This document shows, in pieces, positions 15,364-49,292 of a DNA stretch of 64,000 nt; positions within the stretch are counted from its first letter, which is position 1; every line of letters begins with the position of its first letter. The DNA is taken from positions 62,001-126,000 of the forward strand of contig JALVYU010000026.1 in the NCBI GenBank assembly GCA_027022365.1. The letters run 5' to 3'. The position numbers were made by a program, and so were the translations under genes. Under the pieces are notes generated by a model. It did not search any database. It was not told where the DNA came from and was given only the letters and a program-made list of their open reading frames with translations. The DNA comes from Desulfurococcales archaeon (GTDB lineage Archaea > Thermoproteota > Thermoprotei_A > Sulfolobales > Desulfurococcaceae).

Positions 15364-15445
15364 GCTAACACCGACTTCATAATATGTTTAAAAAGACTAA
15401 AAGGGGTTTTCAGCCCTCACACGGCTTCGAGAAACTGTTTCGGAG

Positions 15446-15485
15446 CCCTCCCCCATCTATAAGATCATGTTTTTATGGGGGAGGG
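15446..15485. repeat. Perfect 11-bp inverted repeat around the integrase start
   Basis: CCCTCCCCCAT at 15446-15456 and its exact reverse complement at 15475-15485 are separated by 18 bases. The right arm contains the first possible ATG of the integrase and a purine-rich ribosome site for the second ATG (15493). As RNA it would hide translation initiation; as DNA it could be an operator or recombinase-binding core. Confidence 0.6.
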
Positions 15486-16623
15486 GCAAGGGATGGTTCA
15501 GCTCCACTATGATATGAATAGTATAAAGGTATTAATAGAAAATGGTTGCAAAGAGTTAGGACCCATTTACTGCCGTGTTCTTGAGGATTTATTTTACGAC
15601 TATATGGGTGATACCAGAGTTTCAAGCCTCTCAACCATAAGGGTGGGGCTTGATAAGGCGTGGGTATTCCTCAGATGGCTCAAGGAGAGAGGTGTGAAGC
15701 CAGATAATATAGATGATAGGATCCTTAAGCGCTTCCTAGTAGAGATCAAGATGACGCGGAAACCAGGAACAGTTTTCAGCTACGTAAAAGCCCTGAAAAG
15801 AATGCTGAGAGTACTGGGCAAAGAAGAATTAGCAAACAAGCTAAAGTATCCCAAACAACCCGAAAAGGTTCCAGATCTCCCAAGCCCCGAACTAGTAGAA
15901 AAGATCATATCAGAGCTGAGGGATCCCTTCAAAACCATAGTAGCAATAATCTACGAGACAGGGGCCCGGGTCTCCGAAATACTAAGCCTAAAATACAAGC
16001 ACATCAAAGAGACACCTCAGGGATACTACAAGATCATAATTGAAGAACCAAAAAACAAGGAGTCAAGAACAATATACGTGATAAAATACGCAATGCTTCT
16101 AAGAAACTACTTACTACTACACCCAGGAAAACCAGACGAAATAGTCTTCAAATCACCAGTACACCCGGAGAAACCCCTAAAGCCGAGAAACGTCGAGCTA
16201 GCCCTCAGAAGGGCATCAAGAAAACACAACACACGGATCTACCCACACCTCCTACGACACCTTAGAGCAACCCTCCTAATCAAACAAGGCATGCCGGAGC
16301 GAATAACAATGAAGCTACTAGGCCACAAAACCGAGAAAATGATGAAAATATACGTAAACCTGGTTCAGAAAGACATTGAAGAAGCAGTACTAAAACACTA
16401 CGGAATACAGCCTCAAGCCCAGAACAACGGAAAAGAAGCAACTAAATGCCCAAGATGCGGAGCAACCAACCCCAAGGAAGCAAACTACTGCTGGAGATGT
16501 GCCTACCCACTACACCAACAAGCCGCATTACAATTAGAAATAAAAGAAAAAGACCTGGAAGAAAGACTAAGGAAATTGTTGGAAATTATAAAGAAACATC
16601 CAGAAATTCTCAAAGAGCTATAA
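15475..16623 (+). CDS. Tyrosine recombinase (integrase) with C-terminal zinc ribbon
   Basis: 382 residues. An N-terminal SAM-like DNA-binding domain (about 45-125) is followed by the catalytic domain with R165 (TGARVSEILSLKY), H258-L-L-R261 (YPHLLRHLRATL), H284 (LLGHKTEKM) and nucleophile Y293 (KIYVNL). A C-terminal zinc ribbon follows (CPRCGA at 325-328, CWRC at 339-342), and then a charged helical tail. All catalytic residues are intact. Start may be ATG 15475 or ATG 15493, which has a better ribosome site. It opens the accessory block and is probably the integrase of one of the elements here; the attachment site was not identified. Confidence 0.9.
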   Translation: MGEGQGMVQLHYDMNSIKVLIENGCKELGPIYCRVLEDLFYDYMGDTRVSSLSTIRVGLDKAWVFLRWLKERGVKPDNIDDRILKRFLVEIKMTRKPGTVFSYVKALKRMLRVLGKEELANKLKYPKQPEKVPDLPSPELVEKIISELRDPFKTIVAIIYETGARVSEILSLKYKHIKETPQGYYKIIIEEPKNKESRTIYVIKYAMLLRNYLLLHPGKPDEIVFKSPVHPEKPLKPRNVELALRRASRKHNTRIYPHLLRHLRATLLIKQGMPERITMKLLGHKTEKMMKIYVNLVQKDIEEAVLKHYGIQPQAQNNGKEATKCPRCGATNPKEANYCWRCAYPLHQQAALQLEIKEKDLEERLRKLLEIIKKHPEILKEL

Positions 16624-17884: not shown

Positions 17885-18496
17885 TTATGTTTTGTTTCTT
17901 TTATTTTCTTTCAGTCTTCTCAATAATGTTGAATATGATATATTGAGTAGTCTTGCACAGTCTCTTAGGCTAAGTCCTTTCCTGCGGTATTCTCGGAATT
18001 TCTTCCAGTCGATTTCTTTTCTCGGTCTGCCAATGTGTTTGCCCTGCATCTTCGCCCTCAGCATTCCTTCTCTGGTTCTTTGTCTTAGGAGTTCTCTTTC
18101 CCTCTCCGCGGCCCAAACCAGTACTGCTATGACTAGCTTTCTCACTTGTGGGTCTAGGTTTTGGAGGAACTTCTCCTTATCGCTGACAGTAATAACGGGG
18201 GAGTTCAGCTCCTCTAGCTCCTGGATGGCCCTGAGGGTTTCGTAGAATGTCCTCCCCAATCTGCTCAGCTCATATACTAGGACTGGCCTAGGCTTCTTCC
18301 GTGCATGCTCGATAAGCTCCTTGAAACCCTTCCTCTCCCAGGGAGGAACAGCCCCGCTAACACCAACGTCTTCAAACCACTCTACCACCTTGTAGCCGTT
18401 GGCATCAGCCCACCTCAGTATAGCCAGCCTCTGATTCTCAGGATGCTCCTCCCTCAAACTAACCCTAATATACGCATAGGCCTCGCTCGGCTCCAA
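17885..18496 (-). CDS. Serine recombinase (resolvase/invertase family)
   Basis: 203 residues with TTG start. The catalytic domain begins AYIRVSLREEHPENQ with nucleophile Ser13, then the GVSGAVPPWERKGFKEL and VYELSRLGRTFYETL motifs containing the conserved Arg residues, a long E-helix (WAAERERELLRQRTREGM), and a C-terminal helix-turn-helix (GLSLRDCARLLNISYSTLLRRL). No TnpB-like partner lies next to it, so it is probably a resolvase or invertase of the element and not half of an IS607-type transposon. Confidence 0.88.
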   Translation of the reverse strand: MEPSEAYAYIRVSLREEHPENQRLAILRWADANGYKVVEWFEDVGVSGAVPPWERKGFKELIEHARKKPRPVLVYELSRLGRTFYETLRAIQELEELNSPVITVSDKEKFLQNLDPQVRKLVIAVLVWAAERERELLRQRTREGMLRAKMQGKHIGRPRKEIDWKKFREYRRKGLSLRDCARLLNISYSTLLRRLKENKRNKT

Positions 18497-21495: not shown

Positions 21496-21705
21496 ATGAT
21501 CGAGATGAGCATCGAGATTGAAGGTAAGAGAGTTTATTTCTATCCTTTACTCTCGCGGAATGGCCTCAATGATTTTGTCTCATTAATTACTAGCACGGGC
21601 TTTAATACCGTGGTCGCTGGGTTTACACATAGTGTTATAGAGCTTGAGAATATGTTAGTAGATAATATCTCTACTATGAATGAAATCGGGTTTTCTATAT
21701 CATGA
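21496..21705 (+). CDS. Short open frame, possibly a truncated gene (69 aa)
   Basis: ATG at 21496 reads IEIEGKRVYFYPLLSRNG and ends FSIS at 21705, with plausible codon use. The stop falls exactly where the antisense truncated integrase begins to make sense, so this is likely the 5' part of a gene cut by the rearrangement that also truncated the integrase. I do not recognise the fragment. Confidence 0.35.
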   Translation: MIEMSIEIEGKRVYFYPLLSRNGLNDFVSLITSTGFNTVVAGFTHSVIELENMLVDNISTMNEIGFSIS

Positions 21706-21881
21706 ACAGTAAGAGCCAGGGCCTCACTCAGCCGGCAACCAGTATACACTAAGATCGATACAAGCGCTAGATCGCGTATACCGTATTGCCCCCGCTTATA
21801 AGCTCTATACGCTCTCTTCAAAGCATCAACCAAAGCCTCAAACCGGGGAACATCATCAAGCTTTAGTTTAGGACCACTCAA
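21706..21881 (-). pseudogene. Truncated tyrosine recombinase fragment
   Basis: Minus strand from ATG 21881 encodes the start of an integrase catalytic domain: VPRFEALVDALKRAYRAY, then DLALVSILVYTGCRLSEALA, which carries the first catalytic Arg (compare TGARVSEILSLKY in the intact integrase at 15.5 kb). The frame stays open to 21540, but beyond residue 58 it merely reads the opposite strand of the short gene at 21496. The H-x-x-R, H and Tyr motifs are missing, so it cannot recombine DNA. A relic of a second element or of the partitioned-integrase type. Confidence 0.6.
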
Positions 21882-22760: not shown

Positions 22761-23837
22761 TTAGTTGACCCCTTCATATTTAACTATTAGCATATCTGAA
22801 GTAAACGCTATTGGAAAAAGATTAAGTTCTTCAGAAATTTTAACTATTTCTTCTTTTATAGCGTTTAAGATAATATTGTTTAATAGTTTGTCTTTCTTTT
22901 GATGAATATTGATTATATAATTAGCTGTTTCCTGTATAGTATATAAATTAAAGTCAGGAATAATTTCAATTATATTAAATCCCTCATTAAGTATATTTTC
23001 AACAATCTTCCTTTTATCTTTTGAAGCTACGTAGGGATACATTATATAGCCCTTTCTAAGACCATTAATCTTAAGAGCTTCTTTTCCACGTTTTATCCAA
23101 GTTAATAACTCTTTCATTGAATAATACGGATCGCATTCAAAGATATCGAAACGTCCTACGAGATCACGAGGTAAGGGATCAAATAGATCGTGATGTACTG
23201 TTTCTAGTGAAATTCCGTATTTATTTCCAATTTTGTTTAATTTATCTAATAAATCGGAATCCAAATCGATGACATATATTTTTAGATCAATTTCGTATTT
23301 TTTGAATAATATGCCAAGAGCAATGCTAAGACAATCATCATCGCCCAACATTACAGCATTTTTGAGTTCGAAACCATTATCGATTAATATTTTAATAGCT
23401 CTATTTACTATCGAATAAACATGTGCAGGGTATTGATTTAAATGACGTTTCAGTTTTATAGAGTTTCGAACATCATTTATCGCAGTTATTATTTCATAAA
23501 AAGTTTCTGAAGGAATATTTAATAACAATCTATTGTTAAGTGTTATTATTTTTTCTTCTTTAAGTATCTTCAATAAAGTATAAGAAGGTAAAATTCCTAT
23601 TTTTCTGACTATGTCACAAATAGACTTAAAATCAGAATTAGAAATAATAACTCTTGTCATGCATTCATAAAATATCTCATAAGGTATTTTTGAATAAAGA
23701 GCATTCCTTATTTCCTCTATATCTTTATATGTATTCGTATAAAGATATATTCCTATTTTTTCGAAGATCCTTATTATATATTTGGTTAATTGGTTAATGA
23801 ACGCATTATAGAGTTTATAACTCGTATTTGAATCCAT
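22761..23837 (-). CDS. BpsA-like (DUF43) aminopropyltransferase/methyltransferase-fold protein in a peptide-modification operon
   Basis: 358 residues. An N-terminal region with winged-helix-like character (to about 135) is followed by a Rossmann-like catalytic domain. That domain has the signature AVMLGDDDCLSIAL (GDDD at 165-168), IYVIDLDSDLLDKL (191-193), HHDLFDPLP (215-223) and FECDPYYS (233-240). These match the archaeal and thermophile N4-bis(aminopropyl)spermidine synthase family, which moves aminopropyl groups from decarboxylated SAM. The C-terminal part is longer and diverged. It lies 17 bases after the second radical SAM gene in a precursor-led operon, suggesting it acts on the peptide instead of free polyamine; that is inference. 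Very AT-rich. Confidence 0.7.
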   Translation of the reverse strand: MDSNTSYKLYNAFINQLTKYIIRIFEKIGIYLYTNTYKDIEEIRNALYSKIPYEIFYECMTRVIISNSDFKSICDIVRKIGILPSYTLLKILKEEKIITLNNRLLLNIPSETFYEIITAINDVRNSIKLKRHLNQYPAHVYSIVNRAIKILIDNGFELKNAVMLGDDDCLSIALGILFKKYEIDLKIYVIDLDSDLLDKLNKIGNKYGISLETVHHDLFDPLPRDLVGRFDIFECDPYYSMKELLTWIKRGKEALKINGLRKGYIMYPYVASKDKRKIVENILNEGFNIIEIIPDFNLYTIQETANYIINIHQKKDKLLNNIILNAIKEEIVKISEELNLFPIAFTSDMLIVKYEGVN

Positions 23838-23854
23838 AAACTACACCCTATCTA

Positions 23855-24991
23855 TTATATTATGCCTTGATGAAAAAGTTTGTTTGAAAATGATTTTATA
23901 TAATGATATATATATTTCATAAGCTCACATTTATAGGTTACAGGAATATGTATATTGTTATAAAAATATTTACTCTCCAAGGGGCATTCACCACCACAGA
24001 TATTAATAGCTTTACACTTTAGACACTTAGGAATATTTACTGTTAATCTTTCATTCCATGTTTTAAAAGGATCTAATTTATCTAGTTCATTTAAATCCCT
24101 AATATTATTCACATCAATAAATTCAGAAGTTAAGGCAGCACAAGGACTAATGTACCCTCCCGGTGAATAAATAATATGAATACCACATCCAAAACAATCA
24201 GGAATAGGTGGTTCTTTTTTTAAATAATAGGATAGTGCTTCAGTTAACTTAGAGCTTATATAGGCATGCTTCTGGATGCTAACATTTAGTGCGTCCAGAA
24301 GAGCTTTAAATAACATCTGTGGGTCAAGAACTTCGTTTCTATTTCTTGCTATAGGTATATTTAAGTCTATGTACTTTGTTCGAGTAATATTTAATATATG
24401 AATTAGTGATTCTTTTATATGATTAATATTGTGTTTATGTATAGTACATGCTATTCTAAATCTTATATTAAATTTTCTTAAAAGATTAATAGCACTAACT
24501 ATCTCATGATACGAACCTGATCCGTCAGGTTTAATTCTCATGAGATCATTGATATTTTCTGGTCCGTCCAGGGATATTGCTATGTTTATATTTAATTCTT
24601 TTAAAAGTTTCACGATTTTTTCATCTATAAGTGTCCCGTTAGTTATAATAGAGATCGTATACGGGCCAGTATCATGTCTTAATATTATCTTTAATACTTT
24701 TTTAAACAATTCTTTATAGAGGAGAGGCTCTCCTCCATAAAATCTATATACTCTTCTTTTGTTTAAATTATGCCTTATGAACATTTTTAGAAAATATTCA
24801 AACTTATTAAAGTTAAATGTTTCATTTAAATTAAGTTTATGAACCAGATAACAATATCTACATCTAAGGTTACAGTGCCAAGTTGGTATTATATATAATA
24901 CTGAGTATTTTAATGAATCTCTATATTTTTTTATGCTTTTTATTAATTTTGATGTTTCATCGCTCAAAAAGCCAACACCTAGGATCTCCAT
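23855..24991 (-). CDS. Radical SAM/SPASM peptide-modifying enzyme (second gene of maturase operon)
   Basis: 378 residues. The radical SAM cluster motif is C40-x3-C44-x2-C47 (WHCNLRCRYCYL), followed by RFYGGEPLLY and SIITNGTLID, where the SAM-binding GGE lies. The C-terminal SPASM domain carries CFGCGIHIIYSPGGYISPC, then the canonical Cx2Cx5Cx3C (CLKCKAINICGGEC) and a final Cys (TYKCEL), enough to ligate auxiliary Fe-S clusters. It overlaps the preceding radical SAM gene by 35 bases, so translation is coupled. SPASM enzymes of this type form thioether or C-C bonds in ribosomal peptides. Confidence 0.88.
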   Translation of the reverse strand: MEILGVGFLSDETSKLIKSIKKYRDSLKYSVLYIIPTWHCNLRCRYCYLVHKLNLNETFNFNKFEYFLKMFIRHNLNKRRVYRFYGGEPLLYKELFKKVLKIILRHDTGPYTISIITNGTLIDEKIVKLLKELNINIAISLDGPENINDLMRIKPDGSGSYHEIVSAINLLRKFNIRFRIACTIHKHNINHIKESLIHILNITRTKYIDLNIPIARNRNEVLDPQMLFKALLDALNVSIQKHAYISSKLTEALSYYLKKEPPIPDCFGCGIHIIYSPGGYISPCAALTSEFIDVNNIRDLNELDKLDPFKTWNERLTVNIPKCLKCKAINICGGECPLESKYFYNNIHIPVTYKCELMKYIYHYIKSFSNKLFHQGII

Positions 24992-26024
24992 GGTTTAAGT
25001 CCATATAATAAATATAAGACATTGCTGGACAACCACCACATATCTTTTGGAATTTACAGAATCGGCATTTACCTATAGATTCCCTTGCTACTTGCCTGTA
25101 ATATATGATCTTTTTCTTTATAAACAATTTAGTATTTAGAATATTGCCTATAGGGTCAGGTATATATAAGCAAGGAAGGATTGTTCCATCAGGCATCATA
25201 TATATCTTAGATATACACATGCCACAATATTTCTCTAAGTTGAACGTTTCTTTTATTCTTGTTGTATTAATTTGTTCTAATTGTTTATTATATTTTTTAA
25301 GGATATATGGAACTATAAAAGGAATGGTAGTTTTTACTTTAAAATCATTACGACCGTTGAACATATATTGAATATTTTTCTTAATAATAATTTCAAATAA
25401 TCTTTCATAATCTTTTTTATTTAGTATAATATCTTTAAGATTCTTGGCGCGACCTACCGGGATCAAATCGGTTAAAACGATGCCTTTAGAACCTATATTA
25501 TAAGCAAAATCGCAAAGACTATCTACATAGTTCAAATTCGTTTTTGTGACAACAGATGCAATACTAAAAGGTATTTCGTGCTTTTTTAATAATTTTAAAG
25601 TTCTTAGAACTTTTTTGAAAGTACCTCTGCCCCTGAACACATCATTTATATATTCTAATGGTGCATCCAGACTTATGATTATATCTATATAATCTTTTTC
25701 TTTAGCTAATAAATTGACAAATTGTTCTTTAATCAAAGTTCCATTAGTATTGATTCCTACCCTTATACCATAATCAATAAGTCTTTTAACTATTTCCGTA
25801 AATTGATTACATAAAAAGGGTTCTCCTCCAGTTATACCTATTTCTTTTATATTTAAATTTGAAAGTTTTTCCACGATTTCTAACTTTATACCATAATTGA
25901 TTTCTTTGAATAATTTACTTAAATAAACATTTGAACAATATGAGCAGTTTAAATTACACCTGAAAGTAACAACCCAAGTTATGTATTTAATATTTTTTAA
26001 AAAATCATATATTTTTTCATGCAT
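24957..26024 (-). CDS. Radical SAM/SPASM peptide-modifying enzyme (first gene after precursor)
   Basis: 355 residues. Cluster motif C23-x3-C27-x2-C30 (FRCNLNCSYCSN), SAM-binding ITGGEPFL, and the GINTNGTLI strand. The SPASM region has YCGMCISKIYMMPDGTILPC and CRFCKFQKICGGC plus a terminal Cys (DPRCWLFER); the second cluster motif is Cx2Cx5Cx2C, one residue shorter than canonical. It starts 29 bases after the stop of the 46-residue Cys-rich peptide, which is its likely substrate. Distinct from the next radical SAM enzyme, so the two probably make different changes. Confidence 0.88.
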   Translation of the reverse strand: MHEKIYDFLKNIKYITWVVTFRCNLNCSYCSNVYLSKLFKEINYGIKLEIVEKLSNLNIKEIGITGGEPFLCNQFTEIVKRLIDYGIRVGINTNGTLIKEQFVNLLAKEKDYIDIIISLDAPLEYINDVFRGRGTFKKVLRTLKLLKKHEIPFSIASVVTKTNLNYVDSLCDFAYNIGSKGIVLTDLIPVGRAKNLKDIILNKKDYERLFEIIIKKNIQYMFNGRNDFKVKTTIPFIVPYILKKYNKQLEQINTTRIKETFNLEKYCGMCISKIYMMPDGTILPCLYIPDPIGNILNTKLFIKKKIIYYRQVARESIGKCRFCKFQKICGGCPAMSYIYYMDLNHGDPRCWLFER

Positions 26025-26053
26025 CTGTAGATCACTATTTAATATTATAGATA

Positions 26054-26194
26054 TTATGTTACGCCAGGACTAATTTGACACTTGCATTTAGCACATGCAG
26101 TCAATACATTATTTATTATCAACTTTAATACATCATCTTTATTGATAATAATTTCCTCCTCCGAAATTTTTGGATTAGCTAACTCAGCCAACAT
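26054..26194 (-). CDS. Candidate RiPP precursor peptide (46 aa, Cys-rich C-terminus)
   Basis: ATG at 26194 with an ideal ribosome site (GGTGA, three bases upstream). The first 31 residues are acidic and helical (leader-like: ELANPKISEEEIIINKDD, then VLKLIINNVL). The last 15 residues read TACAKCKCQISPGVT, with three closely spaced Cys. A charged leader with a short Cys-rich tail directly before a radical SAM/SPASM gene is the classic layout of sactipeptide or ranthipeptide precursors. No similar second copy was seen nearby. The peptide is first in a four-gene operon and has its own TATA-like promoter. Confidence 0.75.
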   Translation of the reverse strand: MLAELANPKISEEEIIINKDDVLKLIINNVLTACAKCKCQISPGVT

Positions 26195-26384
26195 TGTCAC
26201 CTAATTTATTGAAATGTTTCATATTATATATAAAATTTATTGTTGGTCTTAGTTCAGTGTTATTAAGATAATTTATAAATACCATAATTGAAATATAGAG
26301 AACGAAGTACCAATAATATGGTTGCTTGACCAAGAATATTGGATATTAATTGATATACTGATCTTATATGATATTGGTGAAATA
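26195..26384. promoter_or_regulatory. Divergent promoter region of the peptide locus
   Basis: 190 bases between the precursor (minus) and the transporter (plus). A TATATATAA-like box reading leftward lies at about 26224-26237, some 30-40 bases from the precursor start. A second box (ATTTATAAATA, about 26271-26281) reads rightward, about 105 bases before the transporter ATG at 26385. The region is nearly all A and T. One regulator binding here could control both operons. Confidence 0.5.
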
Positions 26385-27665
26385 ATGTTTAGAAGAACGT
26401 ATGTATCATCGCTTTTTCTCGTATTGGTTGTTACTGTTGTTTTGCGGAGTATTGGTGATGTTGTTGAGGAGGTTACTGTTCCTTGGCAGGTGCTTGATTT
26501 TACGAATAGTATTTTTCTTGTTGGTGGTGTTTTTGTGTCGTATTTGTTGCCTTGGGTTTTTATTCCGTTTATTGCTGGTAGAGTTATTGATATTGCTAGG
26601 AATAAGTCCTTTGTTGTTGCTTTTTGTATGATTATGCAGATCTCGTCTGTTTTATTGATTATGTTCATGCTTTCTACTGGTTTAGAGACCTTATGGTTTC
26701 TCGGAATAGTCTATTTATCAATAATTGTTATAAGTACTACTGACTCTATACATAGGTATTTTGTGTTTACCAGCATTCCTGAACTAGTGGGGAAGAATGA
26801 GGCTCTCCTTAACAAGTTCAATAGTATTACAGAGCTTTCATCGGGAATAGGAACTATAGTCATGTATGTTCTCTGCGGATACTTGGTAGCAGTATATGGT
26901 TATAAGACGCTCTGGATAGACGTTTTATGCTTAACCATTATAGCTCTTCTACTAATCGATCTCAGCAGATCATTCAAAAAGAAACGCTTACGCTTCTACA
27001 AGGGTGCGTCTATGAATAAGGGCAAACAAATAAAATTTAAAGATCTGCTCAGTACTATAAAAAGGGATCCATTGGTGTTTTCTTACCTCGTTGTCGCTCT
27101 GGGTTTCAATTTCTTCACAGCACCCGTTTCTTTAGTTCTGATAAATTATCTTTACAATACCGTCGATGAACCCACTAAGTACTATGGCTTTATCATGGCG
27201 ATTTCAACTCTTGGAGCAATAATAGGTTCTGGCATAGTAGCTACGTATTCTAAAAAACTGAAATATATTTCTTGTATCATTATCGGGTTACTTGGTGAAG
27301 CAGTAGCTGTTGCAGGAGTATATTTCATAATAGCATATTCTAACGAATATTATAATTGGATACTTACCTTGTTATTAGTCACGGGTATGTATATGATAAT
27401 GGCTATTATGGGAGCAGTGCTGAATATAGGAGCTGATACATTGTTTCAAATGAGGATCCCAGAAGAAGTTCTAGGAAGTTTCAGGGGATTATTTGATAGT
27501 TTGGCCACTATTCCTATAGCATTATCATATATAGTTGTATCAACAATACTAGAGACGTGGGGATACACTATTATAACAGCATCACTAATGGGAATAGGAT
27601 CCATAATAATAGCCTTACTATACATAATCGCATATTCTATATTAATAAAGAAATTAAATACATAG
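26385..27665 (+). CDS. MFS transporter, candidate exporter of the modified peptide
   Basis: The frame is open from 26322, but ATG 26385 has GGTGA five bases upstream and starts MFRRTYVSSLFLVLVVTVV at the first helix. The 426-residue protein has about twelve transmembrane helices in two halves joined by a basic loop (SRSFKKKRLRFYKG, about residues 203-216), as in DHA3-type major facilitator efflux proteins. It is the first gene of the rightward operon, four bases before the third radical SAM gene. Export or self-immunity for the peptide is inferred from position. Confidence 0.82.
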   Translation: MFRRTYVSSLFLVLVVTVVLRSIGDVVEEVTVPWQVLDFTNSIFLVGGVFVSYLLPWVFIPFIAGRVIDIARNKSFVVAFCMIMQISSVLLIMFMLSTGLETLWFLGIVYLSIIVISTTDSIHRYFVFTSIPELVGKNEALLNKFNSITELSSGIGTIVMYVLCGYLVAVYGYKTLWIDVLCLTIIALLLIDLSRSFKKKRLRFYKGASMNKGKQIKFKDLLSTIKRDPLVFSYLVVALGFNFFTAPVSLVLINYLYNTVDEPTKYYGFIMAISTLGAIIGSGIVATYSKKLKYISCIIIGLLGEAVAVAGVYFIIAYSNEYYNWILTLLLVTGMYMIMAIMGAVLNIGADTLFQMRIPEEVLGSFRGLFDSLATIPIALSYIVVSTILETWGYTIITASLMGIGSIIIALLYIIAYSILIKKLNT

Positions 27666-27669
27666 CAGG

Positions 27670-28851
27670 ATGATTATGATGCAAAAGTCTCGTTTAAAAC
27701 ATTTACAGATATTACCAACATTATCGTGTAATATGAACTGTGATTACTGTTACATAAAATTTGCTCCTATGACACAAATTAATTATAAAATGAGTAATGA
27801 TACAGTTGATCTGATAGTTGAATCTATACGCCAAAAAAAGCTTCAATTATCTGATAATGCTACAATTACATTTCTGGGTGGGGAAGTAACTCTTTGTCCA
27901 GAAATTATAGATAGATTTTTTATAAAGCTTCACGACAATCTAAAGAAGAATAAATATATTATCAATATCCAAACTAATGGTTTAGAAATAAGTTCCCTCA
28001 TAGAGATATTACGAAAATTCAAAGATATTTTACCGCAAATAAACATAACGATTAGCATAGATGGTTTTGAAAAAATTCATGACTTTTATAGAAAGGACAA
28101 AAATGGCAACGGGACATTCAAGAGGATCCAAAAGAATTTAATAATGTTATTGAGATTATTGCATCCTAGCAAGATAACTATTCAGTCAACATTAACAAAT
28201 AAAACAAAAAATATTCATAATTTTATAAAAACCTTTCACTCATATGGTATAACAAAATTTCAACTAGTACCTGTAATCACTCCTCCAAGTCTTAGTCATA
28301 TGAGAATTAAACCAACGAATTACCTTGATGAATATATCAAAGTCATCGATTACTATTTTGAGTGCTTAAAAAAAGAAAATCCATTTACAGAAGATTTAAT
28401 ATCTCATTATTTATACAGAATATTGTCTTTAACTAATATCTTGACTAATCCAACTAATTTTCCTGAAAATATATGTCCTATAGGGGTTTCTGTTCTTGCA
28501 ATCGATCCTAAAGGATATGTATATCCCTGTTCAATGTTTGTAGGTTTTAAAGACTATTGTCTCGGAAGGATTGATAATATAGATAAGACTAAAGTAGAAA
28601 ATATAGTTCGGAAAGTAATACAGGGAAGAAGGAAATATTGTAGAAATTGTAAATTAATTAATATCTGTGATCATGGATGCGTAGCAAGAAACCTTATAGA
28701 AAAAAGTGATATAGCTATATTCCCTAAAGAATATTGTAGTATTAAAAGAAATATAATATTATATATTATCAAAAAGCTTTCTAGTATATTACCGAATCTC
28801 AATCCATATTTTCAACATATAGAAAAAGAATTAAGTTTACAGTATTTATGA
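27670..28851 (+). CDS. Radical SAM/SPASM peptide-modifying enzyme (third, in transporter operon)
   Basis: 393 residues. Cluster motif C20-x3-C24-x2-C27 (LSCNMNCDYCYIKF), then TFLGGEVTLC, where GGE is followed by V in place of the usual P, and NIQTNGLEIS. SPASM motifs are CPIGVSVLAIDPKGYVYPC, canonical Cx2Cx5Cx3C (CRNCKLINICDHGC) and a final EYCSIKR. Begins four bases after the transporter. Three different SPASM enzymes around one small precursor is unusual. Confidence 0.88.
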   Translation: MIMMQKSRLKHLQILPTLSCNMNCDYCYIKFAPMTQINYKMSNDTVDLIVESIRQKKLQLSDNATITFLGGEVTLCPEIIDRFFIKLHDNLKKNKYIINIQTNGLEISSLIEILRKFKDILPQINITISIDGFEKIHDFYRKDKNGNGTFKRIQKNLIMLLRLLHPSKITIQSTLTNKTKNIHNFIKTFHSYGITKFQLVPVITPPSLSHMRIKPTNYLDEYIKVIDYYFECLKKENPFTEDLISHYLYRILSLTNILTNPTNFPENICPIGVSVLAIDPKGYVYPCSMFVGFKDYCLGRIDNIDKTKVENIVRKVIQGRRKYCRNCKLINICDHGCVARNLIEKSDIAIFPKEYCSIKRNIILYIIKKLSSILPNLNPYFQHIEKELSLQYL

Positions 28852-29321: not shown

Positions 29322-31175
29322 CTAATAGGAGTGGGTAATTATATCAAGGGCTTTTTCTAGATCTATTTTTCCACCATACATTTGTATCGTTAATAGTAGT
29401 TTCACTGCCCATTCGCCGTGATGATCTCTTATTTGTGTTAAGAGTCTCTTGTCCAGTCCACGCATCGTGCCTGCAGGTGTTCGTGTTCTAATGTATTTCC
29501 ACAGGTCCGGGCTGTAATAGACCATGCCTTTCTCCAGGTCTACGGATATTAGTCCTACTTCTATTAGCTCGTATAGCTTTTTCCAGCCTGGATGTCTGGT
29601 GTAGTCTTCATATTTGGTCTCCTTGTCTAGTACTAGCTTGTTCTTCTTGAGGGCTTTGATGAGCTCTGGTATTATTTTCTTGATGACTATTTCGCCGCAC
29701 TGTATCACGGCCTGCTTGTAGAGGGGCTCGATAACGTTGACTAGGCCGGCTTCCCATAGTTGTCTTAGTTGTTGCTTGAGTCCTGGGCCTAGGCCTCTCC
29801 ACGCGGCCTCAACGATCTTTTCATAATCCTTCTCGGACAAAGTACATACTACTGGCTGCTTATTGAACACCGTCTCCACTAGAACCCGTTTCAGCCCCGC
29901 CTTAACCTCTGCTATCTCCCGGTGTAACTTGGCTATTGAGCCAGCAACATCTACGTGGGCCTGGAAGAGATTCAATAAGTCCTCAACACTCATCTCATTC
30001 TTTCTCCTACGGATCCTCCTCTCAATTCTCAGCGGTCCATCACCGTCGACACCACCCTTTAGGTAGGCAACCAAGTCCCCGGCCGTGAACTGGCCGGCCC
30101 GGAACTGGAGGCTACCCCTCCACAAATCACAGTGCAGGTCGACACGTAGAACAGATAAATCAACAACCCCAACCTCTACACCAAGAACCCCGGAAAGCTC
30201 CCCAACCAAAGCCTCCAGAAACCCCTCAAGCTCCCCGGGACCACTAAAAGACCCAGAAACAATAACCTCACAACCACCACTATATCCACACAAAACCCTA
30301 ACCCTACGACCCAAAACCTCAAACACAAACCCAAGCTTACCACCCATACCACTACCAACAACCCGAAAACCCCTCCTCGACAAACACACAAAACCACAAT
30401 GCCCCGGAACATACAAAACCAAACCATTAACACCACAAGAACCATCCTCACCACTAACACCGCCAAACCCAGCCGCAGGCGGGGCCCCTCCCCCAGCCTC
30501 CCCGATCACATTTTGCCCGGTATCAGAACCCTTGCTGGCGTCGGGGGCTTTACTACTACATATTAATGGTAATAGTGAACAAATCCTATTGGAAACCCTG
30601 TAGAGTCCCCGCTTAATCCTCTCGACATAGCCTGTTCTACGGAGCCTCCACAGATACTTCTTAACAAGATGGGGATCCAGTTTCAGGTAGAAGGCTAGAG
30701 TAGAAGGAGTAAACACCCGGAGCCTAGCTGCAGCCTCCAGGATCCTGCGGGAGACCATGCCTAGGAGACTAGGTCTAGGATGCCTTGAGACACTACTTGA
30801 GACACCCGGACCAGGAGTCACATCAACTCCATGAGACAAAGGACTAGAAGTCACTTCAAGACCATGAGACACCCTAGCAGAAGTCTCTTCACAACATGAG
30901 ACAACTCCATGAGACACCTGGTTGCTGGAGCACTTCTTCCTAGAGACAGGTAATAAGCCAGCAGCTGTCTCATTATAGGCTATATGAGACATTTGATTAG
31001 ACCTAGACCTCTTCGGAACATAGACTCCCAGAGCGATAAGCTTCCTACGAACCCAATCCTTAGAGATATAGAGGTTAAACCTAGAGGAAACCATACGGGC
31101 TATCTTACGGAGACTAAACCCTTGACGGTAGAGCTCTACGGTATACAAGAGAACAGGATCCAGGGACTGGGCCAA
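29322..31175 (-). CDS. Large plasmid-type DNA-binding protein, candidate replication initiator
   Basis: 617 residues, TTG start. An N-terminal helix-turn-helix (residues 5-55: YRQGFSLRKIARMVSSRF) is followed by a Ser/His-rich linker (60-130) with repeated V/M-S-H-G units. A winged helix comes next (about 140-195: FTPSTLAFYLKLDPHLVKKY), then a Gly-rich central domain (230-380) and a helical C-terminal domain. I recognise no HUH or primase site. Two DNA-binding domains, internal DNA repeats and position at the end of an element make a replication or partition role plausible but unproven. Residues 230-345 use almost only G/T-rich codons. The frame antisense to this region (30085-30603) is a Pro/Thr-rich shadow. 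Confidence 0.6.
   Translation of the reverse strand: MAQSLDPVLLYTVELYRQGFSLRKIARMVSSRFNLYISKDWVRRKLIALGVYVPKRSRSNQMSHIAYNETAAGLLPVSRKKCSSNQVSHGVVSCCEETSARVSHGLEVTSSPLSHGVDVTPGPGVSSSVSRHPRPSLLGMVSRRILEAAARLRVFTPSTLAFYLKLDPHLVKKYLWRLRRTGYVERIKRGLYRVSNRICSLLPLICSSKAPDASKGSDTGQNVIGEAGGGAPPAAGFGGVSGEDGSCGVNGLVLYVPGHCGFVCLSRRGFRVVGSGMGGKLGFVFEVLGRRVRVLCGYSGGCEVIVSGSFSGPGELEGFLEALVGELSGVLGVEVGVVDLSVLRVDLHCDLWRGSLQFRAGQFTAGDLVAYLKGGVDGDGPLRIERRIRRRKNEMSVEDLLNLFQAHVDVAGSIAKLHREIAEVKAGLKRVLVETVFNKQPVVCTLSEKDYEKIVEAAWRGLGPGLKQQLRQLWEAGLVNVIEPLYKQAVIQCGEIVIKKIIPELIKALKKNKLVLDKETKYEDYTRHPGWKKLYELIEVGLISVDLEKGMVYYSPDLWKYIRTRTPAGTMRGLDKRLLTQIRDHHGEWAVKLLLTIQMYGGKIDLEKALDIITHSY
30784..30992. repeat. Cluster of GAGAC/ATGAGAC repeats inside the replication-like gene
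   Basis: Within about 210 bases the plus strand shows GAGAC near 30787, 30799, 30833, 30866, 30898, 30912, 30943 and 30986, and its complement GTCTC near 30883 and 30966; at least four are CATGAGACA. They encode the repeated V/M-S-H-G residues of the linker. Iterated short motifs inside a replication gene are typical of iteron origins, so they may serve as DNA sites as well as code. Confidence 0.55.
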
Positions 31176-35051: not shown

Positions 35052-35675
35052 ATGCTTGTCTATGATAAATCCAGGGCCGAAGTAGTGGATGCGGAGACCG
35101 GCCTAGTGGTTGAGGATAGACTTATTGATCCGGGGCCCGAGTGGAGGAGCTACAGGCCGGAGAGCCGTAGATGCCACATAATGCACCGCCGGGAACCCGA
35201 GGAACTGAGGTTCTTCCGGGGCCTAGTACCCAGATACGTGTATGAGGACGCTGGCCATATTATGAGGAAGCTGAGGCTCGGAGGCCGTGCAGGGGCCCTA
35301 GCAGCCCTTATGTATTCCGCCAAGAGGTACGGCGTACCCCTACCAGCCGAGGTATTCTACTTCATCGATTATGAGAAGAGGAGCGTCTACAGGGTCTATA
35401 GGAGGATCGTGGAGGAGCTGGGGCCGCCCGGTAGGATGGAGGATGCGGCTGTAGCCCAGGTGGCCGGGCTGGCGGTTAGACTCGGCAAACCGCACCTAGC
35501 TCCATTAGTGGTTAAACTATATAGGAGGCTCAGGGAGAGGAACCAAGGCTATAGATCCACTACCCTAGCCGCCGTAGCCCTCGTCAAAGCCGGGCTCCCC
35601 GCCCGGGAAGTCTCCAAGTATCTTGGAGTAGCCCCCTCTACGCTCTCCAAGGCATTGAAACGGGTGGAGGCCTGA
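35052..35675 (+). CDS. TFB-like transcription factor lacking the zinc ribbon
   Basis: 207 residues against about 300 for cellular TFB. The start VYDKSRAEVVDAETGLVVED, then RLIDPGPEWRSY, is the B-reader/B-linker of TFB/TFIIB, including the GPEWR motif. Two cyclin-like repeats follow (about 50-125 with GGRAGALAALMYSAKRYGVP; about 140-205 with STTLAAVALVKAGLPAREVS and a final helix-turn-helix GVAPSTLSKALKRVEA). The N-terminal Zn ribbon that docks RNA polymerase is missing. It could bind DNA/TBP yet recruit polymerase poorly or differently. Four bases upstream of a TBP-like gene, within a mobile element. Confidence 0.78.
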   Translation: MLVYDKSRAEVVDAETGLVVEDRLIDPGPEWRSYRPESRRCHIMHRREPEELRFFRGLVPRYVYEDAGHIMRKLRLGGRAGALAALMYSAKRYGVPLPAEVFYFIDYEKRSVYRVYRRIVEELGPPGRMEDAAVAQVAGLAVRLGKPHLAPLVVKLYRRLRERNQGYRSTTLAAVALVKAGLPAREVSKYLGVAPSTLSKALKRVEA

Positions 35676-35679
35676 GACG

Positions 35680-36186
35680 TTGGAGCCCCGCGTAGAAATA
35701 GTAAACATCGTCGCAACGATCAAGCTAGAGCCGATGCCAGATCCTGGAGAAGTACTGGGGAAGATACCGGGCTCCAGGCCAGTTAAGAGGTTCCGGGGAG
35801 CAATGCTGAGGATCGGTAAAACCCCTGTGCTGTTCTACAAGAAGAAAATCATAGTAACCGGGGCGAAGAATACCGAGGAGCTCAGAGACACTATAAGGAA
35901 ACTAGTAAGTGTGCTTCATAGGTACGGTATGGAAGCAAAGCCTAGGGGATACGAGATAGTCAATGTAACTGCTAAGGTGGATTTAGGTAGAAGGATAAAC
36001 CTCGTAGAAGCCGCGGAGAGGCTTGGCGGCATCTATGACCCGGACTACAGGCCATACATGGTGGCAAGGATAAACGATACAGTGATAATGCTATCACACA
36101 ACGGAAAACTAGTAATGCTGGGAGCAAAGTCCATTAAAAAATGCTATATGATTTCCGAACATGTTGTTAACAATATATTTCCGTAA
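35680..36186 (+). CDS. Divergent TATA-binding protein (TBP) homologue
   Basis: 168 residues, TTG start with GGTGGAGG upstream. The two direct repeats of TBP are visible. Repeat 1 (about 6-75) has VEIVNIVATIKLEPMPDPGE, FRGAMLRIGKTPVLFY and KIIVTGAKNTEELRDTI. Repeat 2 (about 90-168) has YEIVNVTAKVDLGRRINLVE and KLVMLGAKSIKK. The (V/M)xTGAK strand-end motif is diagnostic, with CTGAK replaced by VTGAK and MLGAK. The intercalating Phe pairs are not conserved, so promoter recognition is probably altered. Lies four bases after the TFB-like gene: a dedicated pair. Confidence 0.75.
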   Translation: MEPRVEIVNIVATIKLEPMPDPGEVLGKIPGSRPVKRFRGAMLRIGKTPVLFYKKKIIVTGAKNTEELRDTIRKLVSVLHRYGMEAKPRGYEIVNVTAKVDLGRRINLVEAAERLGGIYDPDYRPYMVARINDTVIMLSHNGKLVMLGAKSIKKCYMISEHVVNNIFP

Positions 36187-36355: not shown

Positions 36356-36823
36356 ATGAGCTTCCATATAGTTTTATCTGAGGAGGAGACATTTAATAGA
36401 CTAGTGAAGTATTTTGTAGGAAGGAGATTAAAGATACTATCTCTACATAAACCTTCACACATTAAAGTGGAAATCGGCAAATTGTTCTCACTATGGTTTG
36501 GAGAAGCGTTAGGGGTTGTGGATATCAATATTATGAAGCTGGGCAATCATAGTTTAGTCAATCTATACTTTAACTTTCTTAGGGAATATATCTCCGGATT
36601 AATATTGTCTATACTGCTATCGTTTATTCTCACTATATATGGACTACTCATAGACGCGCCCTGGGATGCTGTACTTCTTTTAGCGATTACTGTATTCGCA
36701 ATAGTTATGCTCCTAGAGGGATACAATGTGGCCGTAACAAGGAAGAAGTTCGTAGAGGAGCTATCTTTATTCGTTCAATCAATAAACTCAAACAAGGTGA
36801 ATATAAATGGCAGGCATGATTGA
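36356..36823 (+). CDS. Hypothetical two-helix membrane protein (155 aa)
   Basis: ATG 36356 has GGTGAT seven bases upstream and is preferred over ATG 36341. About 75 soluble residues (SFHIVLSEEETFNRLVKYFV) precede two transmembrane helices (about 80-101 and 108-126) and a cytosolic tail. Its end overlaps the transglutaminase-like gene by 17 bases, so the two are co-translated and probably form one envelope complex. Family not recognised. Confidence 0.6.
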   Translation: MSFHIVLSEEETFNRLVKYFVGRRLKILSLHKPSHIKVEIGKLFSLWFGEALGVVDINIMKLGNHSLVNLYFNFLREYISGLILSILLSFILTIYGLLIDAPWDAVLLLAITVFAIVMLLEGYNVAVTRKKFVEELSLFVQSINSNKVNINGRHD

Positions 36824-37877
36824 TCGTGGAGAAAGAAAAGCTGGGGTACCAGTTGTAGCTCTCATTATTACACTAGTATTCATTGCCTTATTGACTATTC
36901 TTTCACCCAAAGTCGACATCTTTACCACATCATCAACGAATAACACCGGAGGAGCTTCCGCGGACCTTGAAAAGCTTATATTAAGCAAGGTCGACCCGTT
37001 AGCCGTCAGAGAATTCGCCGTTAAACTAACAACTGATCCTCTCAATGCTTTTCCTAATCTATGGAGTAAGTATACTTTAATAGATGAGGAAAGATTCCTC
37101 GAGAAAGGCTATTACTGGTATATAAAGATTAGATTGAGTACGCTCGAAGGAATAAATGGAAGTATAGAGTCAAATACACCAGTAGATTTCTATGTTGTTG
37201 ATGAAGAAGACTTTCTACATTTCAAAGAAGGAGAATCATTCTATTACTACACAAAGCCTTCACGTATAAACATATACAGATCAAGCTTTGAGTGGAATGC
37301 ACCACGTGATGGAACATATTATCTAATAGTATATGCAAAATATGGGAATGCAAGGGTAAAACTAAGAGTCGATACATTCACGAAACCCTTCCTAAGCGGG
37401 TTCCCATATAATATAGAAGACAGAGAAGCATGGTATATATGGATAATAAACGTATGGGTCGCAAAGAACATACACTACATCCCGGATCCAAATTTTGAAC
37501 TAGTACAAGATCCTAAACAAACATTAAGGCTAAGAGCTGGAGACTGTGATGATGTAGCAGTACTAATGGCGTCTATGTATCAAGCAGTAGGGCTAAAAAC
37601 CAAATTCGCAGAAGTAGATACAGATGGAGACGGAAAAATAGACCATATAACAGTCCTAGTGTACTACCATGGAACACCTAAAGAATTCCTAGACAGCGAA
37701 GAAACAATAGCATTCATGGCAGGACTAATATCAAGACTGCCAGATGAATACTCGGTAAGATACATAAAAGGCAATAACGGCATATGGATCATAGCTGACC
37801 CATTATTCTCGGAAAGCAACTACTGTGTAGGAATGATAGAACACGAACCATACAAAATAAAAAATATATTCCCATAA
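36807..37877 (+). CDS. Membrane-anchored transglutaminase-like cysteine protease-fold protein
   Basis: 356 residues, GGTGA upstream. One N-terminal membrane helix (about 13-33) anchors an extracellular part with a beta-sandwich (110-205). A transglutaminase-like domain follows: catalytic Cys in RLRAGDCDDVAVLMASMY (about 246), His in GDGKIDHITVLVYYHG (about 277) and Asp in IADPLFSE (about 335). Such domains cut or crosslink proteins at the cell surface. Coupled to the preceding two-helix membrane protein. A role in envelope remodelling for DNA transfer is inferred from the neighbourhood only. Confidence 0.72.
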   Translation: MAGMIDRGERKAGVPVVALIITLVFIALLTILSPKVDIFTTSSTNNTGGASADLEKLILSKVDPLAVREFAVKLTTDPLNAFPNLWSKYTLIDEERFLEKGYYWYIKIRLSTLEGINGSIESNTPVDFYVVDEEDFLHFKEGESFYYYTKPSRINIYRSSFEWNAPRDGTYYLIVYAKYGNARVKLRVDTFTKPFLSGFPYNIEDREAWYIWIINVWVAKNIHYIPDPNFELVQDPKQTLRLRAGDCDDVAVLMASMYQAVGLKTKFAEVDTDGDGKIDHITVLVYYHGTPKEFLDSEETIAFMAGLISRLPDEYSVRYIKGNNGIWIIADPLFSESNYCVGMIEHEPYKIKNIFP

Positions 37878-38262: not shown

Positions 38263-38532
38263 ATGGTGGCTGTATTGAAGGTTGTCCAGTGTATTCTCGG
38301 CTACCTGGCGGAGAAGGAGATAGCGATGCCCATACAGGTGGAGCGTGACCTGAAAATATCGAGGTACCTGGTGTTCGGCTCCCTGATAATCATGGAGGAG
38401 CTCGGCCTCGTCGAAGCGATTGCCAAGAGGGCTAACTGGAAGCTCTACAGGATAACCGATAAAGGCAGAGAATTATTGGAGAAGGGAAAAACAGTTATAG
38501 AGTTGGAGGCTACCGGCCGAGAACCCTCTTAA
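38263..38532 (+). CDS. Winged-helix regulator (89 aa)
   Basis: ATG 38263 with GGTGG upstream is preferred over ATG 38239. The domain reads LGYLAEKEIAMPIQVERDL, KISRYLVFGSLIIMEELGLV, then the wing RANWKLYRITDKGRELLEKG. It follows the repeat-rich gap that it may control. The 3' end overlaps the convergent HerA-like gene by 23 bases. Confidence 0.72.
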   Translation: MVAVLKVVQCILGYLAEKEIAMPIQVERDLKISRYLVFGSLIIMEELGLVEAIAKRANWKLYRITDKGRELLEKGKTVIELEATGREPS

Positions 38533-40465
38533 CGGCATCTACAACGTTGTCGGGGATAGCCGCTTCAGCCCCGAAACCCCTAATGTAATCCAGGTATTTT
38601 TCACCCACCACGAACAGTATTCTAGCCCCGCTTTTCCCGGCCCTCTCAATGTATTTCCTTATCTTCCCGGGATCCCTGCTGGGACGGGTCTCCACCTCGA
38701 TGAACAAGACATTACCAGTATCCCATGAATTGGCGTCTCGGTATGGTATGGCGATTACATCTGGGATCTCCCGGAGAGGCTCTTCGCCGGTATCGATCCA
38801 TGTCCATACTCCGAGGTTAAGCCTCAGCTCCTCCACGATCCTCCTGATAGCTTCCTGGTGCTCGGGTCCTCCAGCCCTCTCACCGCTAAACACCATCTCT
38901 ACAAGCCTCCTACCCTTATCCGTAAGTTTGTAGAGCCTAGGCCTCCTACCCCTACCACGGGTTCCTGCCTCATAGACCTCTACAAGGCCGAGCTCAGCCA
39001 GCCCGCGGAAAACGCCATACACAGAACTACCCGATATACCGAAGAACCCGGCAACACGCTTCTCCAAAACCTTAGTAGGCATATCGCCCTCATAGTACAA
39101 CACATACAATACATAAGCCTCTATAGGCCTGACCGGGGGCTCTTTAACCTGGATAGTACCGGGCTCCTCCTTTTCTCCAGCCTCCTCGGCTACTTTAGCT
39201 TCGGCTTTCTCCTCTACCGGGGCCCCGTAGAGTTCCAGGCTCCTTGCTATCCTTTTACTGATCTCCGGGTCATCCTCAAACATAGATCCCTGGACATCAA
39301 CGGGAATATATACTGTATTGAGGGTGAAGGGTCTAACAGGCTTACCGTGGACCTCGGTTTTAACCGCGAACCAGTAGAGAGGCAAATTGATCAAGTCTTT
39401 CTCGGAGAATATAGGCTCGTAGAGCTTGGCCAGTAGCTTAGCCGATTTAAGCCCAACCCTGAACGTTATAAAGGTTCTGCAGTTGCCTAGTATGGCGTCC
39501 AGTATCTCCCGCGGGTACTGCTCGGGATATTGAGTAGCCAGTGTAAGATATAGCTTGTACTTACGGGCCTCGGCAAGAATATCGATAAGGGTTGGAACGG
39601 TGAAGTTGTGGGCCTCGTCGATGTATAGGTAGTGTGGGATCCTCATCCTAGGAGCAACATCGATTCTGGACATGGCCGCCGAGAAAATCTTGCCGATGAT
39701 CAATGTGCCGAGGAAGTGTGAAACCTCTTCGGTGAGCCTACCCTTACTGAGATTAATGACTATGAAAGCCCTCGAATCCATGAGCTTCCTGAAGTCAATA
39801 GTGGACCTTCTAGCAGAGAATATAGGGCGGAGTATCCTGGAGCCAACGAGCTTGCTTATCTTGTTCACAACGCTGATAATAGCGTCTTTTGGTAGGCGGG
39901 GCCATTCCTCCTCCCAGAACTTAGCCACCAGGGGATCCTCGACATTAGCTACGAGCTCGTTTCTCCTATCCTCGTCGACAAGCAGATAGTAGAGATCCAG
40001 GAGACTAGTAGACCCAGGCGGCTGCTCTAGGAGGGTGTTTACACAGTTCCTCAATATATGCTCCAGCCTAGGACCCCAGAAGTCCTTGAAAAGCTTCTGC
40101 AACGCAGAAATAAACGCCTCACCCACACGCTCCCTATCCCATTCATCACGATACTCGAGGAAGTTTATCCTCACGGTCTTGCCGAATACCTTAATCGTTG
40201 TGGGGTCTATGTAGACAAGCCTATCAACTCTATCCTCGGGTATCAGCTTAACGATTTCAAGGGCAAGGTCTCCATGCGGGTCCAGCAGGCTGAATCCCTC
40301 GCCGAGGTCTATGTGTTGCTTGATAAGGAACTTGAGCAACGTCGACTTGCCTGTGCCGGATTTACCGAAAACCGCTATGTGGAGGCGATCCACCTTATAG
40401 ATCCCGTACTTCTTCTCCTTAAAGGATCCAAGGTACACTACCTCGTCTAGACGCTTAAGCTCCAC
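38510..40465 (-). CDS. HerA/VirD4-like DNA-translocating ATPase with winged-helix and nuclease-like tail
   Basis: 651 residues. The P-loop FtsK/HerA-family motor carries Walker A GKSGTGKST (34-42), SLLDPHGDLALEIV (59-72), Walker B HYLYIDEAHNF (278-288) and the sensor LTLATQYPEQ. An acidic linker (about 415-445) leads to a winged helix (about 455-535, VLEKRVAGFFGISGSSVYGV). A C-terminal fold follows with PDVIAIP and VLFIEVETRPSRDPGKIRKY, resembling PD-(D/E)xK or replication-relaxation domains, though the catalytic Lys is not obvious. Comparable to VirD4/TraG couplers and CedB. Divergent from its companion gene at 40640. Confidence 0.82.
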   Translation of the reverse strand: MELKRLDEVVYLGSFKEKKYGIYKVDRLHIAVFGKSGTGKSTLLKFLIKQHIDLGEGFSLLDPHGDLALEIVKLIPEDRVDRLVYIDPTTIKVFGKTVRINFLEYRDEWDRERVGEAFISALQKLFKDFWGPRLEHILRNCVNTLLEQPPGSTSLLDLYYLLVDEDRRNELVANVEDPLVAKFWEEEWPRLPKDAIISVVNKISKLVGSRILRPIFSARRSTIDFRKLMDSRAFIVINLSKGRLTEEVSHFLGTLIIGKIFSAAMSRIDVAPRMRIPHYLYIDEAHNFTVPTLIDILAEARKYKLYLTLATQYPEQYPREILDAILGNCRTFITFRVGLKSAKLLAKLYEPIFSEKDLINLPLYWFAVKTEVHGKPVRPFTLNTVYIPVDVQGSMFEDDPEISKRIARSLELYGAPVEEKAEAKVAEEAGEKEEPGTIQVKEPPVRPIEAYVLYVLYYEGDMPTKVLEKRVAGFFGISGSSVYGVFRGLAELGLVEVYEAGTRGRGRRPRLYKLTDKGRRLVEMVFSGERAGGPEHQEAIRRIVEELRLNLGVWTWIDTGEEPLREIPDVIAIPYRDANSWDTGNVLFIEVETRPSRDPGKIRKYIERAGKSGARILFVVGEKYLDYIRGFGAEAAIPDNVVDAVKRVLGR

Positions 40466-48991: not shown

Positions 48992-49134
48992 TAACTATAC
49001 CAATATAGGTGAGAACGCCAAGAGTATAGTAGCAGATCATAAATAAAGCGTTATAGCCGTCAACAGATCAATAATAATCTGTAAATTCCTGAGAGGCGAG
49101 AAAGCTTGAGGGGAGAGACCCGAACTAAAATATA

Positions 49135-49292
49135 TGGTCCCGCGGGGGGGACTTGAACCCCCGACCACCCGGTATCTGCGAGCCACGCCGCCCCGCCTTC
49201 ATCCAGGCCCGATCATTCACGGGCCGGTATGGCGGGTGGGGGGCTCGGCTTCCCCACTACAGCCGGGCGCTCTGCCGCTGAGCTACCGCGGG
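49135..49292 (-). tRNA. tRNA-Tyr (GTA) with 83-nt intron
   Basis: The acceptor CCCGCGG pairs with CCGCGGG with the C1-G72 pair typical of archaeal tRNA-Tyr, discriminator A and encoded CCA (49135-49137). T arm is GGGGG-TTCAAGT-CCCCC and the anticodon stem CCCGG/CCGGG. The anticodon loop C-T-GTA-G is interrupted after position 37 by an intron of about 83 bases containing a GGCCCG/CGGGCC hairpin. Confidence 0.92.

Follow-up and report, generated by a model that had tools for sequence, protein, structure and literature searches.

A candidate peptide-modifying gene cassette with three radical SAM enzymes and a BpsA-like enzyme on a conjugative-type element of a Desulfurococcaceae-like archaeon

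In the polytheonamide (Poy) proteusin cluster, an epimerase and C-methyltransferases modify a long precursor with a nitrile-hydratase leader. Several radical SAM (S-adenosylmethionine) enzymes are employed there for one precursor (reviews PMC5682303, PMC8326336). More than one radical SAM/SPASM maturase also serves the small, Cys-rich precursors of two bacterial ribosomally synthesized and post-translationally modified peptides (RiPPs): in the case of thuricin CD, TrnC and TrnD work together in a complex (PMC12093266), whilst two radical SAM enzymes are needed for ruminococcin C (PMC8188230). The ranthipeptide (freyrasin) maturase PapB (NF047865) links a Cys residue to Asp or Glu located 0-6 residues downstream (PMC9413430). 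In archaea, characterised RiPP products are scarce (PMC12144867). Here, a 64,000-nucleotide stretch of DNA from a Desulfurococcales archaeon (assembly GCA_027022365.1, contig JALVYU010000026.1, positions 62,001 to 126,000; the whole stretch is referred to as the window) was analysed, in which two divergent gene sets with six intact reading frames are found (Table 1). The left operon encodes, in this order, a putative precursor peptide with a Cys-containing tail, two radical SAM/SPASM enzymes (rSAM1 and rSAM2) and a BpsA-like enzyme, and the right operon encodes a major facilitator superfamily (MFS) transporter followed by a third radical SAM/SPASM enzyme (rSAM3). Judged from the sequence, these genes probably constitute a two-operon RiPP-type cassette that forms the cargo of an integrative-conjugative-like element in this Desulfurococcaceae-like archaeon, and the SPASM enzymes, the BpsA-like enzyme and the MFS protein would act on the peptide. 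A RiPP-type cassette of uncommon composition, borne by a conjugative-type element of an archaeon, is a convincing but unproven interpretation. It is the combination that stands out: three SPASM enzymes together with a BpsA_C enzyme and a Cys-tailed peptide, all of it mobile and in a hyperthermophile lineage.

Like thuricin CD and ruminococcin C, the cassette has multiple radical SAM/SPASM enzymes alongside a small, Cys-rich putative precursor, and like the polytheonamide cluster it has several radical SAM enzymes for a single putative precursor. It differs from the first two, which are bacterial and employ two radical SAM enzymes, in having three, and neither of those systems is known to contain a BpsA_C enzyme. 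The initial annotation had stated that the locus fits no known class, and this holds in so far as none of the listed NCBIfam models reaches its curated cut-off for any of rSAM1-3; the action of multiple radical SAM enzymes on one peptide, however, is already known from the three systems named above. PapB is the best model for rSAM2 (128 bits) and for rSAM3 (162 bits; cut-off 340 in both cases), but the Cys-X0-6-Asp/Glu pattern is absent from the peptide of this locus, in which the last cysteine is followed by QISPGVT, without Asp or Glu. As nothing acidic follows its cysteines, this peptide, if it is the substrate, cannot undergo the exact PapB chemistry.

Table 1. Features of the cassette and of the surrounding element (window coordinates unless marked C26)
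Feature	Position	Strand	Remarks
BpsA-like enzyme	22761-23837	(-)	358 aa; BpsA_C domain, GDDD at 165-168, divergent N-terminal 140 aa, without zinc ribbon
rSAM2, radical SAM/SPASM enzyme	23855-24991	(-)	378 aa
rSAM1, radical SAM/SPASM enzyme	24957-26024	(-)	355 aa
Putative precursor peptide	26054-26194	(-)	46 aa, MLAELANPKISEEEIIINKDDVLKLIINNVLTACAKCKCQISPGVT; open reading frame, Shine-Dalgarno sequence and shuffle test
TATA-like TTTATATA, putative left-operon promoter	26227-26234	(-)	~33 nt upstream of peptide ATG; read from sequence
MFS transporter	26385-27665	(+)	MFS_1; TIGR00900-like; probable exporter/immunity
rSAM3, radical SAM/SPASM enzyme	27670-28851	(+)	393 aa
15-bp direct repeat TCAGCCCTCACACGG	15410-15424	(+)	Element left end; second copy at B end of other island near C26:247677
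Element, first part	15425-49127		33.7 kb; sister-genome comparison
Element, second part	C26:247678-272376		24.7 kb; outside window, beyond 136-kb inversion
Tyrosine integrase	15475-16623	(+)	~50 bp from element end
Serine resolvase	17885-18496	(-)	
Extra TATA-binding protein	35680-36186	(+)	
HerA/TrwB-like type IV coupling protein	38510-40465	(-)	PadR-like domain; matches plasmid coupling proteins including Sulfolobus

The gene inventory, the coordinates, the 46-residue peptide, the 35-base overlap and the 190-base shared region of the initial annotation were all recovered. The overlap of 35 bp is that of rSAM1 with rSAM2, and the divergent gap (26195-26384), common to the peptide operon and to the operon of the MFS protein and rSAM3, amounts to exactly 190 bp with the starts refined to ATG codons at 26194 for the peptide and 26385 for the MFS protein. 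The latter codon has GGTGA 4 nt upstream, and sequences resembling Shine-Dalgarno motifs precede most cassette genes. The presence of a RiPP-like toolkit, consisting of precursor, maturases and exporter, is likewise supported by the gene arrangement. Pfam detects Radical_SAM in all three rSAM enzymes, in addition to BpsA_C and MFS_1, and names SPASM in rSAM3 only. By inspection, rSAM1-3 each possess CX3CX2C and the full auxiliary-cluster set, CX2CX5CX2-3C and then a last cysteine, and all three thus look like the SPASM maturases with complete auxiliary cysteines of sactipeptides and ranthipeptides. Their pairwise identity of 25-29% indicates that they are distinct enzymes and not the outcome of a recent duplication. 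As the TrnC/TrnD complex and the two enzymes needed for ruminococcin C illustrate, both cooperation and division of labour are possible for them. Besides PapB, the nearest models of rSAM2 are DynA (125 bits, cut-off 450) and anSME, and the fact that both rSAM2 and rSAM3 have peptide maturases as their nearest NCBIfam models argues in favour of a precursor. The best PDB relatives are SkfB for rSAM1, anSME for rSAM2 and, for rSAM3, the radical SAM protein 5wgg, a SCIFF maturase.

The peptide gene heads its operon, 29 bp ahead of rSAM1, and is preceded by a Shine-Dalgarno sequence GGTGA at 26197-26201, two bases before the ATG (or five before the following TTG). The C-terminus of the peptide is ...TACAKCKCQISPGVT, with three core cysteines. 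By position and sequence, a short precursor-like gene adjoins genes for tailoring enzymes, as is characteristic of RiPP loci. When the intergenic region was subjected to 20,000 dinucleotide shuffles, an ATG open reading frame of at least 35 aa was obtained in 41% of them, so that the length of the peptide frame is uninformative. At least three Cys in the last 16 residues occurred in 0.48% of the shuffles and, together with a Shine-Dalgarno sequence, in 0.01%, figures to be taken as a guide only because these features were picked after seeing the sequence.

In the case of the BpsA-like enzyme, the Pfam match to BpsA_C covers residues 151-307 only (9e-25, 87.7 bits versus a gathering score of 27), BpsA structures align over about 150 residues, and a profile of archaeal BpsA homologues aligns at 140-306 only (99.6% probability, 33% identity), leaving the N-terminal 140 aa unalignable. 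With BpsA (EC 2.5.1.128; PF01861) the protein shares the catalytic domain, including GDDD, Asp236 (Tk Asp225) and Tyr299 (Tk Tyr290); it differs in its SPASM-enzyme context and in that the zinc-ribbon CxxC, an equivalent of Tk Glu259 and the N-terminal domain conserved among archaeal homologues are missing. In Tk-BpsA, the aminopropyl carrier is an acidic cluster at the C-terminus (PMC12979288). The last 20 residues of the BpsA-like protein contain one Asp and one Glu, and KEE/SEE pairs at about 325-335 fail to align with the Tk-BpsA cluster. Lacking the zinc ribbon and a recognisable acidic carrier cluster, the protein probably does not act as an ordinary polyamine synthase. The earlier designation as polyamine-synthase-like is appropriate for the catalytic domain only; other hallmarks of true BpsA are absent or uncertain. 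Branched-chain polyamines are generally absent from crenarchaea (PMC12979288) and a search of 229 class genomes for homologues of the BpsA-like enzyme gave none at E<=1e-8, which makes a housekeeping polyamine role unlikely. In our own reading, the protein is a repurposed SAM-dependent transferase; as the host genome encodes two AdoMet decarboxylases, decarboxylated SAM should be available.

Comparison with sister genomes places the cassette within inserted DNA. Chromosomal homology with three sister species stops at window base 15424 in each of them and resumes at 49128 with sister G101, and all three species are without the element at that site. In G101, the left flank runs into sequence that lies here from C26:247677 downwards, and beyond the right flank 312 bp intervene before sequence that lies here from C26:272377 upwards. 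This arrangement indicates the inversion of a 136-kb segment, one end of which bears an insert of 33.7 kb and the other end an insert of 24.7 kb. Of the direct repeat of Table 1, the G101 junction has a single copy, and in the present genome a copy is found at each outer end beside matching flanks. A pair of attachment (att) repeats was sought within the window and not found, as the two copies are 170 kb apart. The simplest reading is that one element of about 58.4 kb entered at the 15-bp core and was later split in two by the inversion. An integrase, att repeats, an empty site in relatives, a VirB4-like ATPase and a coupling protein, the features of integrative-conjugative elements, are all present, and the element can probably move between cells. 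In common with archaeal conjugative plasmids and conjugation-related DNA transfer machinery (PMC9905601), it encodes an integrase and a coupling protein and, in its second part, a VirB4/TraG-like ATPase, a T2SSE-like ATPase, a T2SSF-like protein and ParB; it differs from them in carrying a putative modified-peptide cassette, in its integration at the 15-bp core and in being split by an inversion. The recent transfer proposed in the initial annotation is thus strongly supported, the cassette being cargo of an integrated mobile element absent from three sister species at this site. An intron-containing tRNA-Tyr (49135-49292, (-) strand; detected only with the intron option) lies directly at the inversion breakpoint. 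Within the element, a zinc-ribbon protein resembling transcription factor B is encoded beside the TATA-binding protein, which is divergent in sequence (35052-36186), and a transglutaminase-like protein (36807-37877) is a possible peptide-processing candidate, unlinked to the cassette.

The GC content of the locus is 0.290, as compared to 0.433/0.439 for the flanking chromosome, 0.461 for the element to the right of the locus and 0.366 for the element to its left, where individual genes have values of 0.31-0.32. As the left part of the element is also AT-rich, the locus is far more AT-rich than its surroundings on the right, as had been claimed, but only moderately so on the left. At third codon positions, the rSAM and BpsA-like genes have a GC content of 0.21-0.22, the peptide gene 0.28 and the MFS gene 0.33, whereas the integrase, resolvase, TATA-binding protein and HerA/coupling genes of the element show 0.46-0.61. 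The cassette differs in this respect even from the element, and the low value common to the rSAM and BpsA-like genes is consistent with one imported cassette. Beside the cassette lies a 113-aa integrase remnant (21540-21881), perhaps the trace of an earlier insertion that brought in AT-rich DNA. On the other side, a 617-aa protein with a weak AbiEi-like winged helix-turn-helix (29322-31175) adjoins the cassette and is possibly a regulator or a defence gene.

Relatives were searched with rSAM1, rSAM2, rSAM3, the BpsA-like enzyme and the peptide, in query sets that differed between collections, in 197 genomes of the order, 229 of the class and 300-398 of the phylum, and in IMG/VR, plasmids, phages and GTDB contigs. 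For rSAM1, the 197 order genomes contained no match at 1e-50, and in 398 phylum genomes the identity of matches did not exceed about 31%. A single match (27%) was obtained for rSAM3 in 300 phylum genomes, and the best match of the BpsA-like enzyme in 397 phylum genomes had 38% identity over 160 residues. Plasmids yielded rSAM relatives, all below 30%, and no match to the BpsA-like enzyme or to the peptide, and in the other collections searched the peptide gave only weak, chance-level matches. A GTDB-wide scan with rSAM1 only, by exact 8-residue words that detect close relatives only, returned one distant radical SAM enzyme and nothing relevant. The neighbourhoods of 20 other BpsA_C genes contained one weak radical SAM neighbour, 4-5 kb off (L074), and no cassette. 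Thermoproteota BpsA_C proteins of about 540-580 aa (L067:1159-2829, L082, L083 and L084) possess a C-terminal extension which, by eye, resembles a GNAT acetyltransferase. Four phage-like IMG/VR contigs carry three tandem overlapping SPASM genes (L112, L113 and L114, 2670-6128; L115, 3769-6591), in an apparent tail-gene region, with a 241-aa Cys-rich frame upstream (L113:1558-2283); having phage-type genes and a different gene set, they were rejected as related loci. On a Thermoproteota contig with virus-like tail/structural genes (L122:8803-10940; G216:C9), a SPASM enzyme nearest to PapB (197 bits) adjoins three small Cys-repeat frames (SCQVCNTCQ... repeats, 86-122 aa), which may possibly represent a virus-encoded ranthipeptide-like modification.

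If the genes form a RiPP-type cassette, the 46-aa peptide would consist of an acidic leader followed by a core at the C-terminus around TACAKCKCQISPGVT. The SPASM enzymes would work on this core, most likely forming crosslinks of the thioether (or C-C/C-N) type that are centred on Cys, either each at its own position or jointly in one complex. Thereafter the BpsA_C-like enzyme would put a SAM-derived group on the peptide; an aminopropyl group, with decarboxylated SAM as its donor, is plausible. The MFS protein would export the product or shield the producer. The intact genes and motifs, the arrangement in two operons and the anatomy of the mobile element are observed directly, whereas we infer the peptide as substrate, the chemistry, the order of the steps, leader removal and an antagonistic use of the product.

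Several observations weigh against this interpretation. There is no leader peptidase among the cassette genes, and no related locus was found in any of the collections searched. No RiPP recognition element (RRE) domain was detected by Pfam or NCBIfam, and the radical SAM folds start within 15-40 residues, without a long N-terminal extension; most, not all, prokaryotic RiPPs have such a leader-binding domain. The models nearest to rSAM1 are heme/cofactor enzymes (AhbD, NirJ2). As to the BpsA-like protein, the acidic carrier cluster of Tk-BpsA has no recognisable counterpart, a single-sequence structure model (mean pLDDT 39) is too poor for use, and aminopropyl transfer to the peptide is a guess.

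The small frame might instead be no precursor at all, with the SPASM and BpsA-like enzymes modifying a protein or making a small molecule (e.g. a modified polyamine), perhaps in element defence or stress. This is unlikely. In its favour, the peptide frame is conserved in nothing found, a frame of at least 35 aa arises readily in shuffled DNA and BpsA_C enzymes normally act on polyamines (PMC12979288); the combination of Cys tail and Shine-Dalgarno sequence, however, is rare by chance, rSAM2 and rSAM3 are nearest to peptide maturases, and rSAM2 was rejected as a prokaryotic viperin with only 78 bits on NF038283 (cut-off 180). It is quite improbable that the peptide is matured to a small cofactor or a redox/metal carrier, similar to PQQ or mycofactocin, and not to a secreted antagonist, the MFS protein moving the product or its precursor. 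A Cys-rich tail could bind metal and rSAM1 scores best on AhbD, NirJ2, ScmE and MftC, but all of these scores are far below cut-off. For heme b synthase AhbD (TIGR04545) rSAM1 reaches 151 bits with a cut-off of 500, and for mycofactocin MftC 123 bits versus 265, while the peptide ends in GVT and MftA in Val-Tyr, so that both assignments were rejected. Moreover, the cassette contains neither an MftB/PqqD-like partner nor a partner oxidoreductase, and its presence on a mobile element that sister species lack fits an accessory trait. That the cassette is decayed or chimeric cargo without function is highly improbable, for although it is unique and recently acquired and its host element is broken by an inversion, all six frames, all Fe-S cysteines and GDDD are intact and ribosome-binding-like sequences precede most genes.

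A RiPP-type cassette borne by the element thus remains the preferred interpretation. The further-reaching proposal of a new archaeal RiPP class, in which three different SPASM enzymes crosslink one short Cys-tailed core, a repurposed branched-polyamine-synthase domain aminopropylates the peptide and the whole is an antagonism trait passed among hyperthermophiles by a conjugative element, is distinctly unlikely. The cassette would offer thermostable crosslinking enzymes, would test whether polyamine-synthase chemistry was recruited to peptides, and would exemplify a peptide-making trait carried by an archaeal conjugative element.

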